From assembly GCF_014269205.2 (NCBI RefSeq), contig NZ_JABWRY020000001.1, forward strand, positions 310,001 to 374,000: a DNA stretch of 64,000 nt, given 5' to 3'. Source of the DNA: Pseudomonas kermanshahensis. GTDB lineage: Bacteria > Pseudomonadota > Gammaproteobacteria > Pseudomonadales > Pseudomonadaceae. The notes beneath the pieces were generated by a model, which was given only the letters and a program-made list of their open reading frames with translations, did no database searches and was not told the origin of the DNA. Below, one piece after another: positions 7,855-47,443 of the stretch; the first letter of the stretch is position 1, and every line of letters begins with the position of its first letter. Made by a program: the position numbers and the translations under genes.

Positions 7855-7919
7855 GTGTTCGTCCCGCCCTGTAAAAGTGATGTGCTTACGGTAGGGACAC
7901 GCAACCTGAGCAAAACACG

Positions 7920-7938
7920 ACAATGATTCTTGTTACGT
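7920..7938. promoter_or_regulatory. Weak Fur-box-like site before the receptor
   Basis: GACAATGATTCTTGTTACG matches the 19-bp Fur consensus at about 12 positions. It overlaps the 3' end of the fecR gene and precedes the receptor start by 66 bases. A direct Fur effect on the receptor is possible; FecI-type control is more likely. Confidence 0.3.
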
Positions 7939-8901
7939 ATACGCGCGCGCCGTGACGGTGACCCAGTAGGGCGTGCGGTAGTGGATGTCCACCGGCAGCG
8001 TCTGGCTCAAAGCGCGCAGAATCTGATCGGTGTCGCGCAGCTGGAAGGTGCCGGAGATCAGCAGCCGGGCCACGGCGGGGTCGCAACGCAGCAAGCCAGG
8101 CCGATAGCGCCCAAGCTCGCTGATGAAGTCATCCAGGCGCGTCTTTTCTACCCGCAGCACATGGTTGAGCCAGTCGAGGCGCTGCTCGGCCAGCGGCATG
8201 GGGGGCTGTACAGCCTGGAGGCTGACCTGGGTTTGCTGGCCGGCGGCCAGGCGCACCAAGCCGTCGTCACCCCATGCCAGGCGAGGACGCACTTCGACAG
8301 CGCCCTCTAGCGCGGCGAGGAACGTGCTGCCTGGGTACTGACGCACCAGCAAGCGGCTGCCGAGCGGGCTGATGTGCGCTTCGGCGGTATCGACGATAAA
8401 CGGGCGCCTGGCAGGCTCACGGGGCAGCTCGACCAGCATCTCGCCGGCGATCAGGCGCACGCGGCGAACGCTGTCGTCGTAGGCGATATCGACGGCGCTG
8501 CCGGTGTTCAGGCGTAGCTGCCCGCCATCCGGCAAGGGCACGCTGCGCTGCTCCCCGGTGGCCGTGCGCACGTCCGCCTGCCACTCGCGCCACGGCAGCC
8601 CCCGGTAGGCTGCGAGGCCAATCGGGGCGGCGGCAATCAGCAATGCGAGGGTCTTGAGTGCCTGCCTGCGCTCCAGGCTGCGCGGGCGCTCCAGCGCCGT
8701 GCGGGTGGGTTCCCCGCTAAGTTGCTGGGCACGGCTGCTGAAGCGCTCGGCCAGTTGCCAAGCGCGTTCGTGGTCAGCGTGCCGCGCCCGCCATTCGGCG
8801 CCGGCGGCATGTTCGGCGGCGCCGGCGCTGCTGTTCTGCAAACGCACGAACCAGCTGGCGGCTTCGCGGGCAATGCGCCGGTCGATGGGGGTATTACTCA
8901 T
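7933..8901 (-). CDS. fecR: FecR-family anti-sigma factor
   Basis: 322 residues from ATG at 8901 (MSNTPIDRRIAREAASWFVR). The N-terminal DUF4880 region reads REAASWFVRLQ ... WRARHADHERAWQLAERF, a single membrane helix follows (TLALLIAAAPIGLAAY, about residues 85-100), and the periplasmic FecR domain contains TATGEQRSVPLPDGGQLRLNTGS. The C-terminal part resembles an STN-type domain that contacts the receptor. The start overlaps the end of the sigma-factor gene by 8 nt, so translation is coupled. It holds the adjacent FecI protein inactive until the receptor signals. Confidence 0.9.
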   Translation of the reverse strand: MSNTPIDRRIAREAASWFVRLQNSSAGAAEHAAGAEWRARHADHERAWQLAERFSSRAQQLSGEPTRTALERPRSLERRQALKTLALLIAAAPIGLAAYRGLPWREWQADVRTATGEQRSVPLPDGGQLRLNTGSAVDIAYDDSVRRVRLIAGEMLVELPREPARRPFIVDTAEAHISPLGSRLLVRQYPGSTFLAALEGAVEVRPRLAWGDDGLVRLAAGQQTQVSLQAVQPPMPLAEQRLDWLNHVLRVEKTRLDDFISELGRYRPGLLRCDPAVARLLISGTFQLRDTDQILRALSQTLPVDIHYRTPYWVTVTARAYT

Positions 8902-41028: not shown

Positions 41029-41817
41029 GTGCTGACCGAACCCCGTCGCCGCGCCTACCTCTCCGCCATGCAAGTGGTGCACTGGCTGCCGCGCGCCGAA
41101 CTGCCGTTCGCCGCACCGTCGCGGCCCGAACTGTTGTTGCCGGTGGCGCCGGTCGAAGACATCGACTTCGAGGTCAGGCCTGCACCTGCGGCCAACCAGC
41201 CGGCGCCAGCCGCCCCTCAGGCACGCTCTGGCGAACGCCCGAAAATCGAAATCCCGCGCCCCGGCAGCACCGCGAAGCCTGCCGCCAAGCCAGCCGAAGC
41301 GGAGCCAGAAGCACCCGCACCGCGCCCGGCCCCGGTGCCGCCGCCACGTTTCTCTCTGCAGTTGCTGCGTGCCGGCAGTTGCCTGCTGTTGGTGGAACTG
41401 GCCACCGGCCAGCCCTTCCAGAGCCGCGACCCGTCCTACCTGTTGCTCAAGGACATGCTGCGCGCCGCCGGCCTGCCCGACGCCCCGCAGATCATCGGCG
41501 AGCCGGTCCGCTGGCCGTTGCTGGTGCGCGGTAACATGGACCAGGGCCCGGACGCAGCACGCGATTTTGTCCAGGGGTTCATCCAGGCGCGCCTGGAAGA
41601 AGCTCCGTGCAACTGCTTGTGGCTGATCGGCCTGCCCGCGCTACGCTTCGCCGGCAATGCCGATGCGCACACTTACTACCAAGTACTGAAGCTCGATGGC
41701 CTGGGCGACGCCTGGGCCTTGCCGGGCCTTGAACTGTTGATGGACGAGCCGCAGCGCAAGGCGGACGTCTGGAAAGCCATGCGCCAGCTGATGGCGCGCT
41801 GGAAGAGCGTTGAATGA
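41029..41817 (+). CDS. holD: Putative DNA polymerase III psi subunit (HolD-like)
   Basis: 262 residues from GTG at 41029 (reads LTEPRRRAYLSAMQVVHWLP), the frame overlapping rimI by ATGA. The N-terminal MQVVHWLPR segment resembles the SSB/chi-contact end of psi. A long Pro/Ala-rich linker (about residues 50-105) is followed by a globular part with CLLLVELATGQPF and LWLIGLPALRFAGNADAHTY. The holD-rimI order is conserved with E. coli, and the Pseudomonas psi gene lies next to rimI, which is the main basis for the name. It would link the clamp loader to SSB through chi. Confidence 0.72.
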   Translation: MLTEPRRRAYLSAMQVVHWLPRAELPFAAPSRPELLLPVAPVEDIDFEVRPAPAANQPAPAAPQARSGERPKIEIPRPGSTAKPAAKPAEAEPEAPAPRPAPVPPPRFSLQLLRAGSCLLLVELATGQPFQSRDPSYLLLKDMLRAAGLPDAPQIIGEPVRWPLLVRGNMDQGPDAARDFVQGFIQARLEEAPCNCLWLIGLPALRFAGNADAHTYYQVLKLDGLGDAWALPGLELLMDEPQRKADVWKAMRQLMARWKSVE

Positions 41818-42269
41818 GTGAATCGATCAGTTTCCGCCCGATGACCGAGGCGGATCTGGATGCCGTGCTTAAGATCGAATATGCAGCGTTCAGTCATCCC
41901 TGGACCCGCGGAATCTTTCAGGATGCGCTCAAGTCCTACGAAGTGTGGCTGATGTTCGATGGCCAGCAGCAGGTCGGCCACGGCGTGATCAACGTGATCA
42001 TCGACGAGGCGCACCTGCTCAACATCACCGTCAAACCCGAGAACCAGGGGTGTGGCCTGGGCCTGCGTCTGCTCGAGCACCTGATGGCGCGAGCTTACCA
42101 GCTCAATGGTCGTGAGTGCTTCCTGGAGGTGCGCGCCAGCAACCAGTCGGCCTATCGGTTGTATGAGCGCTATGGCTTCAACGAGATCGGCCGCCGGCGG
42201 GATTACTACCCTATGGCGGGCGGGCGCGAGGATGCGCTGGTGATGGCTTGTACGTTGTTCGAAGAGTGA
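41814..42269 (+). CDS. rimI: Ribosomal-protein-S18 alanine N-acetyltransferase
   Basis: 151 residues, MSESISFRPMTEADLDAVLK. GNAT fold with the acetyl-CoA loop NQGCGLGLRLLEHLM and the C-terminal FLEVRASNQSAYRLYERYGF, NEIGRRRDYYP motifs typical of RimI. It acetylates the N-terminus of S18. It overlaps holD by 4 nt. A broken second copy of its 3' end is found at 43654-43700. Confidence 0.95.
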   Translation: MSESISFRPMTEADLDAVLKIEYAAFSHPWTRGIFQDALKSYEVWLMFDGQQQVGHGVINVIIDEAHLLNITVKPENQGCGLGLRLLEHLMARAYQLNGRECFLEVRASNQSAYRLYERYGFNEIGRRRDYYPMAGGREDALVMACTLFEE

Positions 42270-42316
42270 AGGTGCGGTCCATTCGCTGATGCGCTGGCTG
42301 CCAGCCCTCTAGCGCA

Positions 42317-42367
42317 TACTATGGCGTGGTGCCGATTCACCCGTTGCTGCGCTCGGCTTCCGAGTTA
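42317..42367 (+). pseudogene. Fragment of an M15-like peptidase gene
   Basis: In one frame these bases encode YYGVVPIHPLLRSASEL, which aligns with YGVVPIHQLLRSASDW of the intact gene at 44535-45119 (about 80% nucleotide identity over 48 bases). No start or other part of the gene remains. It lies between rimI and the RHS gene and marks one side of a duplication scar. Confidence 0.65.
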
Positions 42368-42430
42368 CCCCAGAAACGCTCCTGGCATTTTTACCAGTAT
42401 ACAAAGGGCTTCGCGTTCTGAATCATTGGG

Positions 42431-43456
42431 ATGGGAATTCTGAGTATTACGACCATGAAGACTTTCACGGGTGCTTGGTTTTTTTATGAAGGGGATGCAG
42501 TACGCACTGTTTGGCAGGAAGGCCGTTGCAGTTCGTTGATCCAGGCTGCGGGTATGCGGCTTGTCGAGCGAAAGGTTGCCAATGGTCTTCAGCAAACGAT
42601 GATGCTCGCTTCGGATGGCATGGGCTCTGTGATAGGTGAGTCCGGTACACGGTCTAAATCGGTAGCCTATTCACCTTATGGCTTCCAGAGGGGTATGGAG
42701 TCGCTGATTGGCTTCGCAGGCCAGATGCAGTCATTGTTACCAATCGGTTACTTTCTTGGAAACGGTTATCGTTTTTTTGACGTTGTTACCAATCGCTTCA
42801 ACTCGCCTGATGAATTCAGTCCGTTTGGTAGAGGAGGCGTGAATGCGTATGTTTACTGCGGGGGTGACCCAGTGAATCGTACGGACCCTAGTGGTCACAT
42901 GATCTACTATGTGGGCTCATCAAGTGTCTTTAATTGGTTGACACCGGGTACAGAACTCAGTGCACCCATTGCACCCATTGCACCCAGTGCGCGCACCGGG
43001 CCGAGTTATTATTCAGATGGTTTATTTGGAAAGAGTCAGGTACAGAATTTCCCAAGGATTACTACAACGATTAGCCCTCGCTCTGAGGGGATTCATGCTT
43101 CGCGTAAGCGTGCTGCGTCAACCGTAGAGGCTGGGGGGGCAAAGCGCGTGAAGCAAGAAGGAGGTCTCATTCAAAAACCGCAGGCTGATGTCAACAGGAG
43201 GCAGGTTAAAGCCAGAATGACAGCTCGAATTGAGTATTCTCAACTCGAGTTGTTTTCTAATGATAGTAATGTTCCAGACAATAGAACTATCGCGCTAGAT
43301 TATTTAGATATGCTCGATTCTAAGGCAGCGGATGAGGCGAGAGAAGCGTTATACAATAAATATGGAAGGACAGTGAGAGTTATCGAGGTGAGGGAATACG
43401 TTTATAACGGTGTGAGTGGAATTGTTAGTTGGATTCGCAGATCAGCTAAGCGATAA
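42431..43456 (+). CDS. RHS-core protein with variable C-terminal (putative toxin)
   Basis: 341 residues, MGILSITTMKTFTGAWFFYE. The RHS-associated core runs to about residue 156 and ends SPFGRGGVNAYVYCGGDPVN then RTDPSGH. The unrelated C-terminal about 185 residues (after MIYYVGSSSVFNWL) are lower in GC and lysine/serine-rich, with a RKRAAST-type basic patch. In polymorphic toxins this is where the effector domain lies. It is short: no upstream RHS repeats, signal or secretion domain, so it is an orphan module. No immunity gene is visible in the following 295 bases. AT-rich codons point to transfer. Confidence 0.75.
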   Translation: MGILSITTMKTFTGAWFFYEGDAVRTVWQEGRCSSLIQAAGMRLVERKVANGLQQTMMLASDGMGSVIGESGTRSKSVAYSPYGFQRGMESLIGFAGQMQSLLPIGYFLGNGYRFFDVVTNRFNSPDEFSPFGRGGVNAYVYCGGDPVNRTDPSGHMIYYVGSSSVFNWLTPGTELSAPIAPIAPSARTGPSYYSDGLFGKSQVQNFPRITTTISPRSEGIHASRKRAASTVEAGGAKRVKQEGGLIQKPQADVNRRQVKARMTARIEYSQLELFSNDSNVPDNRTIALDYLDMLDSKAADEAREALYNKYGRTVRVIEVREYVYNGVSGIVSWIRRSAKR

Positions 43457-43588
43457 TCTTTACAGATTCTAGATGCTGCAAGGCAGGTCTAACCATGTAG
43501 GTTCATTCACGCCCTGCGATCCGGTCATGAAGCTGTCAGATAGAAAGCAAATAGGTGGCGTCGATTGAGACCTGTCGATCTATCGTTT

Positions 43589-43700
43589 ATGGACCAAAGC
43601 CCGGACGCTGCACGCTATTTTGTCCAGGGGGTCGTTAAGGCACGGTTGGAAGAAGCGTGAGTGCTTCCTGGTGATGGCCTGCACCCTGTTCGAGGAGTGA
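43589..43700 (+). pseudogene. Joined remnants of holD and rimI
   Basis: Bases 43589-43656 match holD 41535-41602 at 57 of 68 positions and encode MDQSPDAARYFVQGVVKARL. They run directly into a rimI-like stretch (CGTGAGTGCTTCCTGG) that then jumps to the rimI 3' end (VMACTLFEE, stop). Two internal deletions therefore joined pieces of both genes. It lies between the RHS gene and carbonic anhydrase. Confidence 0.8.
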
Positions 43701-43751
43701 CCCCTCAGGCGCAGGTCCAGTCACACAGGTACAACCTGATGAGGCAAGACC

Positions 43752-44390
43752 ATGCACGACCTGCAGGAACTGATCGACAACAATGCGCGCTGGGCCGATG
43801 CCATCACCCAGCGTGACCCCGATTTCTTCGCCAAACTGGCCCGTCAGCAAACCCCGGAATTCCTCTGGATCGGCTGCTCCGATGCGCGGGTGCCGGCCAA
43901 CGAGATCGTCGGCATGCTGCCCGGCGACCTGTTCGTCCACCGCAATGTCGCCAACGTCGTGCTGCACACTGACCTTAACTGCCTGTCGGTGATCCAGTAC
44001 GCCGTCGAAGTGCTCAAGGTCAAACACATCCTGGTCACCGGCCACTACGGCTGCGGCGGCGTGCGCGCCGCCATGCAGGACCGCCAGCTAGGGTTGATCG
44101 ACGGCTGGCTGCGTTCGATTCGCGACTTGTACTACGAAAAGCGCGGTGAGCTGGCCAACCTTGAAACCGAAGAGGCGCAGGTCGATCGCCTGTGTGAGCT
44201 GAACGTGATCCAGCAGGTCGCCAACGTGGCCCACACCAGCATCGTGCAGAACGCCTGGCACCGTGGGCAGGAGCTGTCGGTGCATGGCTGCATCTACGGC
44301 ATCAAGGACGGGCGTTGGAAGAGCCTGGACACCACCATCAGCGGGTTCGCCCAACTGCCGCCGCAGTATCGGTTGCGGGCGTTGGACTAA
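43752..44390 (+). CDS. can: Beta-class carbonic anhydrase
   Basis: 212 residues, MHDLQELIDNNARWADAITQ. Zinc ligands Cys42 and Asp44 in GCSDARVP and His/Cys in GHYGCGG near residues 98-101, as in E. coli Can. It hydrates CO2 to bicarbonate in the cytoplasm. Its 5' flank is the holD/rimI remnant, so its native promoter may have been altered. A hairpin follows at 44408. Confidence 0.95.
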   Translation: MHDLQELIDNNARWADAITQRDPDFFAKLARQQTPEFLWIGCSDARVPANEIVGMLPGDLFVHRNVANVVLHTDLNCLSVIQYAVEVLKVKHILVTGHYGCGGVRAAMQDRQLGLIDGWLRSIRDLYYEKRGELANLETEEAQVDRLCELNVIQQVANVAHTSIVQNAWHRGQELSVHGCIYGIKDGRWKSLDTTISGFAQLPPQYRLRALD

Positions 44391-44534: not shown

Positions 44535-45119
44535 ATGACAGGGACGAAGTGGCTACTGCTGGTGGCGGGGATGTGGGCGGTCAATGCGGCGCAGGCCGAT
44601 GACCGCGACGTGTGGATGTTCGCTCAATGGGCTGGCGATCATCAGACTCGCCCGTTCCGCGAGATGCTGGTAGACGCCCGCTTGTACGGGGTGGTGCCTA
44701 TTCACCAACTGCTTCGCTCGGCCTCGGACTGGAAGCTGTGCCGGGCGTCGCCGTTTGCGGTGCCACCGGCGAGCCAATGGCCTGCGGTGCGCTCGACGCT
44801 GTCACTGCTCAAAACCCTCGGCGATCAAGGCATCCTGCGCCAGTTCGAGGTGGTTTCAGCCTACCGTGACCCGCGCCTGAACGTCTGCGCCGGTGGCGCC
44901 GCCAACAGCGCCCACACCCGTGCCTTCGCCGTCGATATGCTGTTGCCGGCCTGGGCTGACCCCAACCCGTTGTGCCGTTTCTGGCAACAGCATGGCCAAG
45001 CCTGGAACATGGGCCTGGGCCGCTACCCGTCAGGTCGTATTCATGTCGACACGGCCGGCTACCGCACCTGGGGTGGCGATGGCAGCGCCGGGTCGTCGTT
45101 CTGTATCAAACCCAAGTGA
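44535..45119 (+). CDS. Exported M15-like peptidase (YcbK/DUF882 type)
   Basis: 194 residues from ATG at 44535 (MTGTKWLLLVAGMWAVNAAQ), GGGAG upstream, with a signal peptide ending AQA. VVSAYRDPRLNVCAGGAANS-AHTRAFAVDM and GRIHVDT carry the His, Asp and His of M15-type zinc peptidases acting on peptidoglycan. It is probably periplasmic. Its last 61 bases overlap the convergent LysR gene. A fragment of a second copy lies before the RHS gene at 42317. Confidence 0.75.
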   Translation: MTGTKWLLLVAGMWAVNAAQADDRDVWMFAQWAGDHQTRPFREMLVDARLYGVVPIHQLLRSASDWKLCRASPFAVPPASQWPAVRSTLSLLKTLGDQGILRQFEVVSAYRDPRLNVCAGGAANSAHTRAFAVDMLLPAWADPNPLCRFWQQHGQAWNMGLGRYPSGRIHVDTAGYRTWGGDGSAGSSFCIKPK

Positions 45120-47366: not shown

Positions 47367-47443
47367 TGGTGGCTACACAGGGACTTGAACCCCGGACCCC
47401 AGCATTATGAATGCTATGCTCTAACCAACTGAGCTATGTAGCC
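47367..47443 (-). tRNA. tRNA-Met (anticodon CAT)
   Basis: 77 nt on the minus strand, from GGCTACATAGCTCAG to CCA encoded at 47369-47367. Acceptor GGCTACA pairs with TGTAGCC, D-arm AGCTCAGTTGGTTAGAGC, anticodon arm AGCAT-TCATAAT-type loop with CAT, T-arm GGGGTTCAAGTCCC. The first pair is G-C and the arm composition fits elongator methionine. A modified tRNA-Ile(CAT) is less likely. Confidence 0.92.

Follow-up and report, generated by a model that had tools for sequence, protein, structure and literature searches.

In the 64,000-nt window of Pseudomonas kermanshahensis DNA analyzed here, whose numbering is used for all coordinates unless a locus is named, a short orphan RHS gene is located between an intact rimI gene and the displaced 3' end of native rimI. 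Compared with related Pseudomonas loci, the two scars flanking this gene differ in ancestry: the M15 gene scar in front of it is of a foreign type and the rimI scar behind it is native. Together they probably record a transfer between species and not a simple in-house duplication. The origin that we consider reasonably likely is that the RHS gene came on DNA of a related Pseudomonas, which would have joined the chromosome by homology in or near rimI and, at its far end, become linked to the native gene in the holD position.

Layout of the locus and the orphan RHS gene

On the + strand, the insert is preceded by the gene in the holD position (41068..41817), which is intact and native, and by an intact rimI (41814..42269; TIGR01575, 144 bits). 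The spacer 3' of rimI (42270..42319) is followed by a fragment of an M15 gene (42320..42363), an RHS upstream element (42382..42407), and the RHS gene (42455..43456). Next come 132 nt without an assigned strand (43457..43588) and then, again on the + strand, a duplicated and probably native holD-position fragment (43589..43656), a rimI internal piece (43656..43671) identical in 16 of 16 positions to 42111-42126, and the native rimI 3' end with its stop (43667..43700), displaced beyond RHS. The native rimI-can spacer (43701..43751), the native carbonic anhydrase gene can (43752..44390; NF007756, 283.9 bits), and the intact, native M15-like gene (44535..45119; PF08291) complete the locus.

A repeat search identified three direct repeats. 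The segment 43589-43656 repeats 41536-41603 of the holD-position ORF at 84% identity (68 nt), 43656-43676 resembles rimI 42111-42131 (90% over 21 nt, the first 16 nt being identical), and 43668-43700 resembles the rimI end at 42237-42269 (85%). Read by eye, the two rimI pieces of the remnant are joined at a common 5-nt CCTGG, as expected for a small deletion. Comparison of the left 1.5 kb of the locus with the right 1.5 kb gave three ordered matches (E 1.7e-16, 3.6e-6, and 1.3e-5). The sham control comprised 132 1-kb positions within the window, places up to 3.5 kb from the locus being left out. Any left-right match at E<=1e-3 was found in 8 of the 132 positions and a match at E<1e-9 in 3 of them, all three from a single place at 17.6-18.4 kb; the direct-repeat fragments around the RHS gene are thus confirmed as real, beyond the sham control. 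A 33-nt direct repeat (94%) surfaced at 17.6-18.4 kb in this test.

The first-pass annotation had described an M15 fragment to the left of the RHS gene and a fused holD/rimI remnant to its right. The repeats, the M15 match, and the sham control bear out both fragments and their order, and the identity of 84% over 68 bases given for the holD part was correct. The remnant is indeed fused, but its rimI part consists of two pieces, and the ORF in the holD position received no name from Pfam or NCBIfam, so that the label holD is that of the earlier annotation. The absence of a mobile element, also claimed there, agrees with our scan: no integrase or transposase was found among the 13 ORFs scanned at 36.0-49.9 kb (RHS included; 5 of the 13 have no Pfam family). 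The 132 nt at 43457-43588 have no match in any fetched locus except the window's own and no plasmid match. None of the listed ORFs of at least 40 aa overlaps these 132 nt, and none of them provides an immunity gene directly downstream of RHS.

The RHS coding sequence probably starts at 42455, because 9 of 10 close homologues in our alignment A1 begin with MKTFTG; P0010 begins like the longer ORF. The product has 333 aa from this start and 341 aa as the longer ORF. It consists of a core, a variable linker with a KR-x10-KR motif, and a C-terminal helical domain, and no long RHS-repeat shell was found before the core. The RHS-associated core (TIGR03696; 55.5 bits, cut-off 32.5) occupies residues 80-156 of the 341-aa ORF. 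The C-terminal part is variable among homologues with near-identical cores (P0001-P0013 in A1). Its helical domain is predicted confidently, with blocks of 77-94 over residues 261-330, and no convincing match to the predicted domain was found. The KR-x10-KR motif occurs in 15 of 66 RHS tails, compared with 0.22 expected by shuffling, although these 15 tails are not independent, since the proteins are related; other spacings from 4 to 19 occur at most once each. In the linker, this motif resembles a bipartite nuclear localization signal.

In the own genome, the RHS protein has matches at 20 places (E<=0.01). The frames at 17 of these places are not longer than 380 aa, and one has just 82 aa. 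Another orphan RHS gene of this genome (L178, C1:1337986-1338240) is located behind a gene assigned by eye as uraH, between two 55-nt copies of the uraH terminator. The copy on the uraH side is the ordinary one, and a short ORF close to the far copy resembles, by eye, a transposase remnant. In the loci L206, L210, and L222, the DNA found here to the right of the far copy directly adjoins the uraH terminator.

Related loci and the ancestry of the scars

In total, 60 named Pseudomonas loci were fetched with the M15 gene, 57 of which span rimI to M15. The gene order smc - holD position - rimI - (can) - M15 - LysR is widely conserved among these loci; can is present between rimI and M15 in 18 of the 57 and absent in 39. 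Strains with rimI directly before can, which the first-pass annotation had proposed to look for, were found, including L051 (P. capeferrum WCS358): of the 18 can-containing loci, 16 have a rimI-can spacer of 50-68 nt, and in L101 and L102 it measures 538 nt. Strains with both full copies, proposed likewise, were not found, as none of the 60 loci carries rimI, can, or M15 twice in full; the additional M15 piece in L083 is partial. No RHS match was detected between rimI and M15 in the 57 loci (tblastn, E<=1e-5). An RHS gene right after M15, replacing LysR, was found in one locus, L075 of P. putida HAI-2, and in L077 an RHS match lies about 4.4 kb past M15.

Across L051-L110, the rimI-M15 junction is variable and contains can, a long reverse-strand ORF, or neither. 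The reverse-strand ORF, of about 400 codons, was found in the five long can-less gaps examined (L054, L057, L073, L074, and L077). The loci L103, L105, and L106 have can and an additional 1.3-1.4 kb at this junction. In L107, the M15 match is split into two overlapping pieces. The second M15 piece of L083 (4672-4863, residues 129-192), located after can and before the M15 gene, corresponds to another part of the gene than the fragment in the window, has no RHS match, and is accompanied by a short LysR-end match. It may represent a further insertion at this junction in which a flank was duplicated.

Four blocks of the window are colinear with the HAI-2 locus. The first, 42162-42288 (L075 4600-4726, 86%), extends 19 nt beyond the rimI stop and thus covers the first 19 nt of the spacer. 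The others are the M15 fragment 42320-42363 (91%), the upstream element 42382-42407 (L075 6643-6668, 85%, a weak match with E 0.005), and 42658-42911 within the RHS gene (72%). Matches of 22-24 nt to the upstream element were also found at further RHS loci, L200 and L182; the upstream stretches of 15 other RHS genes in the own genome score 28 at most, and L075 scores 35.

The best non-self RHS match in 398 genomes of the genus is the HAI-2 gene directly behind M15 (E 1.3e-47, the next being 4.3e-35). The same gene was again the top match in the family draw, the relatives draw, and 50 named genomes. HAI-2 is not the donor itself, because its RHS protein is only 58% identical to that of the window over 126 residues. 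The RHS proteins P0002-P0013 are closer (67-88%), and the HAI-2 protein is the nearest relative placed on a genome. Among the closest of these proteins are P0002 from Pseudomonas sp. PAGU 2196, P0004 from Y3 TE3536, and P0009 from NGC7. At L075 6580-8000, RHS occupies the place of the window's LysR and LysE genes, and no DNA match to LysR/LysE was found in HAI-2 between RHS and the tRNA-Met at 7906-7982.

The scar fragments are short (34-68 nt). The M15 fragment matches L096 and L072 in 41 of 44 positions, L075 in 40, and the own M15 gene and L051 in 35; the six best loci in its ranking are all can-less. Among 20,000 simulated copies of the own M15 gene undergoing decay, none reached 41/44 to a relative. 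For the rimI remnant end the ranking is reversed: it is identical to L051 and L108 in 34 of 34 positions versus 28 of 34 for the own intact rimI, the top ten among 58 rows all contain can, and none of 20,000 simulated copies of the own rimI end reached the observed match. Together with the spacer behind it (43667-43751), this end is 93% identical to L051 over 85 nt. The spacer to the left of the insert, taken alone, does not separate the two ancestries, and a weak score (p 0.068) was obtained against the native rimI-can spacer as well. The earlier reading of the left fragment as a copy of the M15-like gene at 44.5 kb is therefore not retained, and of the two scars traced there to own genes, the M15 fragment is nearer to other species and the holD/rimI remnant does fit the native sequence.

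The flanking genes point to L051. It is the window's sister in quick trees of five genes (SH-aLRT: smc_L 99, holD 98, can 99, M15 98, and LysR 99). In the tree of the whole rimI, the window falls in a clade with 25 can-less rows and zero can-containing rows (support 95/97), and forcing whole rimI to L051 was not rejected by the AU test (p 0.168). In split trees, from which L095 and L107 were dropped, the first 300 nt of rimI group with L051 (96/80) and the last 153 nt with can-less rows (96/89; this bootstrap had not settled, and the AU test versus L051 gave p 0.067). Over 42150-42269, the best matches of the intact rimI are L075, L072, and L071 (107/120); all 15 listed relatives lack can, and L051 (102/120) is level with the last four of these. 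Informative sites at 42168-42267 agree with L051 in 4 cases versus 10 with the can-less set. Over holD-rimI as a whole the native signal is mixed, since the window equals L051 at 42 of 98 informative sites, the can-less set at 46, and neither at 10. Of 51 slices of 150 nt, only 19 have L051 as their closest locus, and a max-chi test within rimI gave no significant breakpoint (p 0.93). The trees support an ancestry switch in or near rimI, but these comparisons do not fix its position.

Origin of the insert

The arrangement is probably best explained by a donor with the order rimI - (no can) - M15 - RHS, as in present P. putida HAI-2. Its DNA would have recombined with the chromosome through homology in or near rimI, so that the intact rimI carries a foreign tail. 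The far end of the incoming DNA would have joined native sequence inside the holD-position gene, and hence the native stretch from about 41536 to the crossover would be present twice, with RHS at the junction. The crossover was probably between 41.8 and 42.15 kb, giving about 0.25-0.6 kb of duplicated native DNA. Later deletions would have removed the greater part of the foreign M15 gene and of the duplicated native holD-rimI, so that only the native rimI tail with its spacer was kept ahead of can. For this account we infer a single event in this direction, uptake of linear DNA, a crossover at the place given, and a far junction formed without homology.

Nearly the same trace as that of linear DNA joined at one side would be left by a circular foreign DNA carrying holD-rimI-M15-RHS and integrated by a single crossover in rimI (Campbell type). 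Under this scheme the left rimI would have a native 5' and a foreign 3' part and the right remnant a foreign 5' and a native 3' part. It thus predicts the chimera observed, native then foreign in the left rimI with the native rimI end on the right, as well as the duplication around the insert. Such a donor is nevertheless unlikely. It calls for a foreign holD fragment, and the fragment found matches both the own gene and L051 in 57 of 68 positions versus 49 of 68 for L075, a difference that is not decisive (decay simulation, p 0.048). Additionally, no close plasmid match was found by DNA, and the 26 plasmid records found by protein all have less than 60% identity, with none covering 80% of the query.

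The first-pass annotation proposed that [holD-rimI-can-M15] was duplicated in tandem in-house, with RHS placed at the junction, and that both sides then decayed. A tandem copy would leave the observed order of M15 fragment, RHS, holD/rimI remnant, and can; the partial duplication of holD-rimI and the decay on both sides are real, and L083 shows that a partial M15 duplicate occurs without RHS. What does not stand is one in-house copy as the source of both scars, and we regard this origin as rather improbable. The M15 fragment is closer to other species than to the own gene. The displaced rimI end is closer to L051 than the intact copy is, the reverse of what is expected for a decaying duplicate. 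A single in-house copy is thereby disfavoured, and it would also need the intact rimI end to have been replaced afterwards. Furthermore, the order to the left of RHS is already found in HAI-2.

Integrative elements typically leave a new tail on the gene and the old tail past the insert, and site-specific integration at the rimI 3' end would fit this look, but it is very improbable here, given that the remnant also contains 68 nt of holD together with a piece from inside rimI, an M15 fragment is present on the left side, the scanned ORFs include no integrase or transposase, and the sole tRNA gene in 36-50 kb (47367-47443) is away from the insert.

Known systems and spread of orphan RHS genes

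The event type of the favoured origin is already known from laboratory transformation, and the locus would be a natural example in which it places an orphan RHS gene. Homology-facilitated illegitimate recombination was reportedly described by de Vries and Wackernagel in 2002, Meier and Wackernagel in 2003, and Prudhomme in 2002. The likeness to this process would be that one end is joined by homology and the other without it, foreign DNA being gained without a mobile element. Here, in contrast, it is read from a natural scar, and native DNA is duplicated. Such one-sided joining is described for both transformation and conjugation (PMC3240628).

During transformation of S. pneumoniae, pairing of one incoming fragment with two sites on sister chromatids produces a tandem duplication that has the fragment at its junction (PMC3784515). 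Those duplications are of about 100-900 kb and lie between repeats, whereas here less than about 0.7 kb is involved and a new gene is found at the junction. In Rhs C-terminal displacement (Jackson, 2009, PMC2935791) and in T6SS effector displacement of V. cholerae (PMC5361080), an incoming cassette moves the old 3' end or the old immunity gene downstream, where it is kept; for the latter, anchoring by a shared upstream stretch was proposed. The likeness is that an incoming cassette shifts the old end downstream. Those cases are at an rhs or effector locus, whereas at the present locus a housekeeping gene, rimI, serves as the anchor and has its own tail displaced.

As a tentative and somewhat doubtful generalization, orphan RHS cassettes of Pseudomonas might spread between species by displacing the tails of housekeeping genes, with no mobile element taking part. 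If this is true, the 3' end of the neighbouring gene accompanies the cassette as its anchor, and the native tail remains on the far side of the insert. The route is readable and testable at this locus because both a foreign piece and a displaced native piece are kept. It predicts orphan RHS genes preceded by the tail of the donor's neighbour and followed by the recipient's own tail, and it would bear on how about 17 short RHS genes became scattered over one genome.
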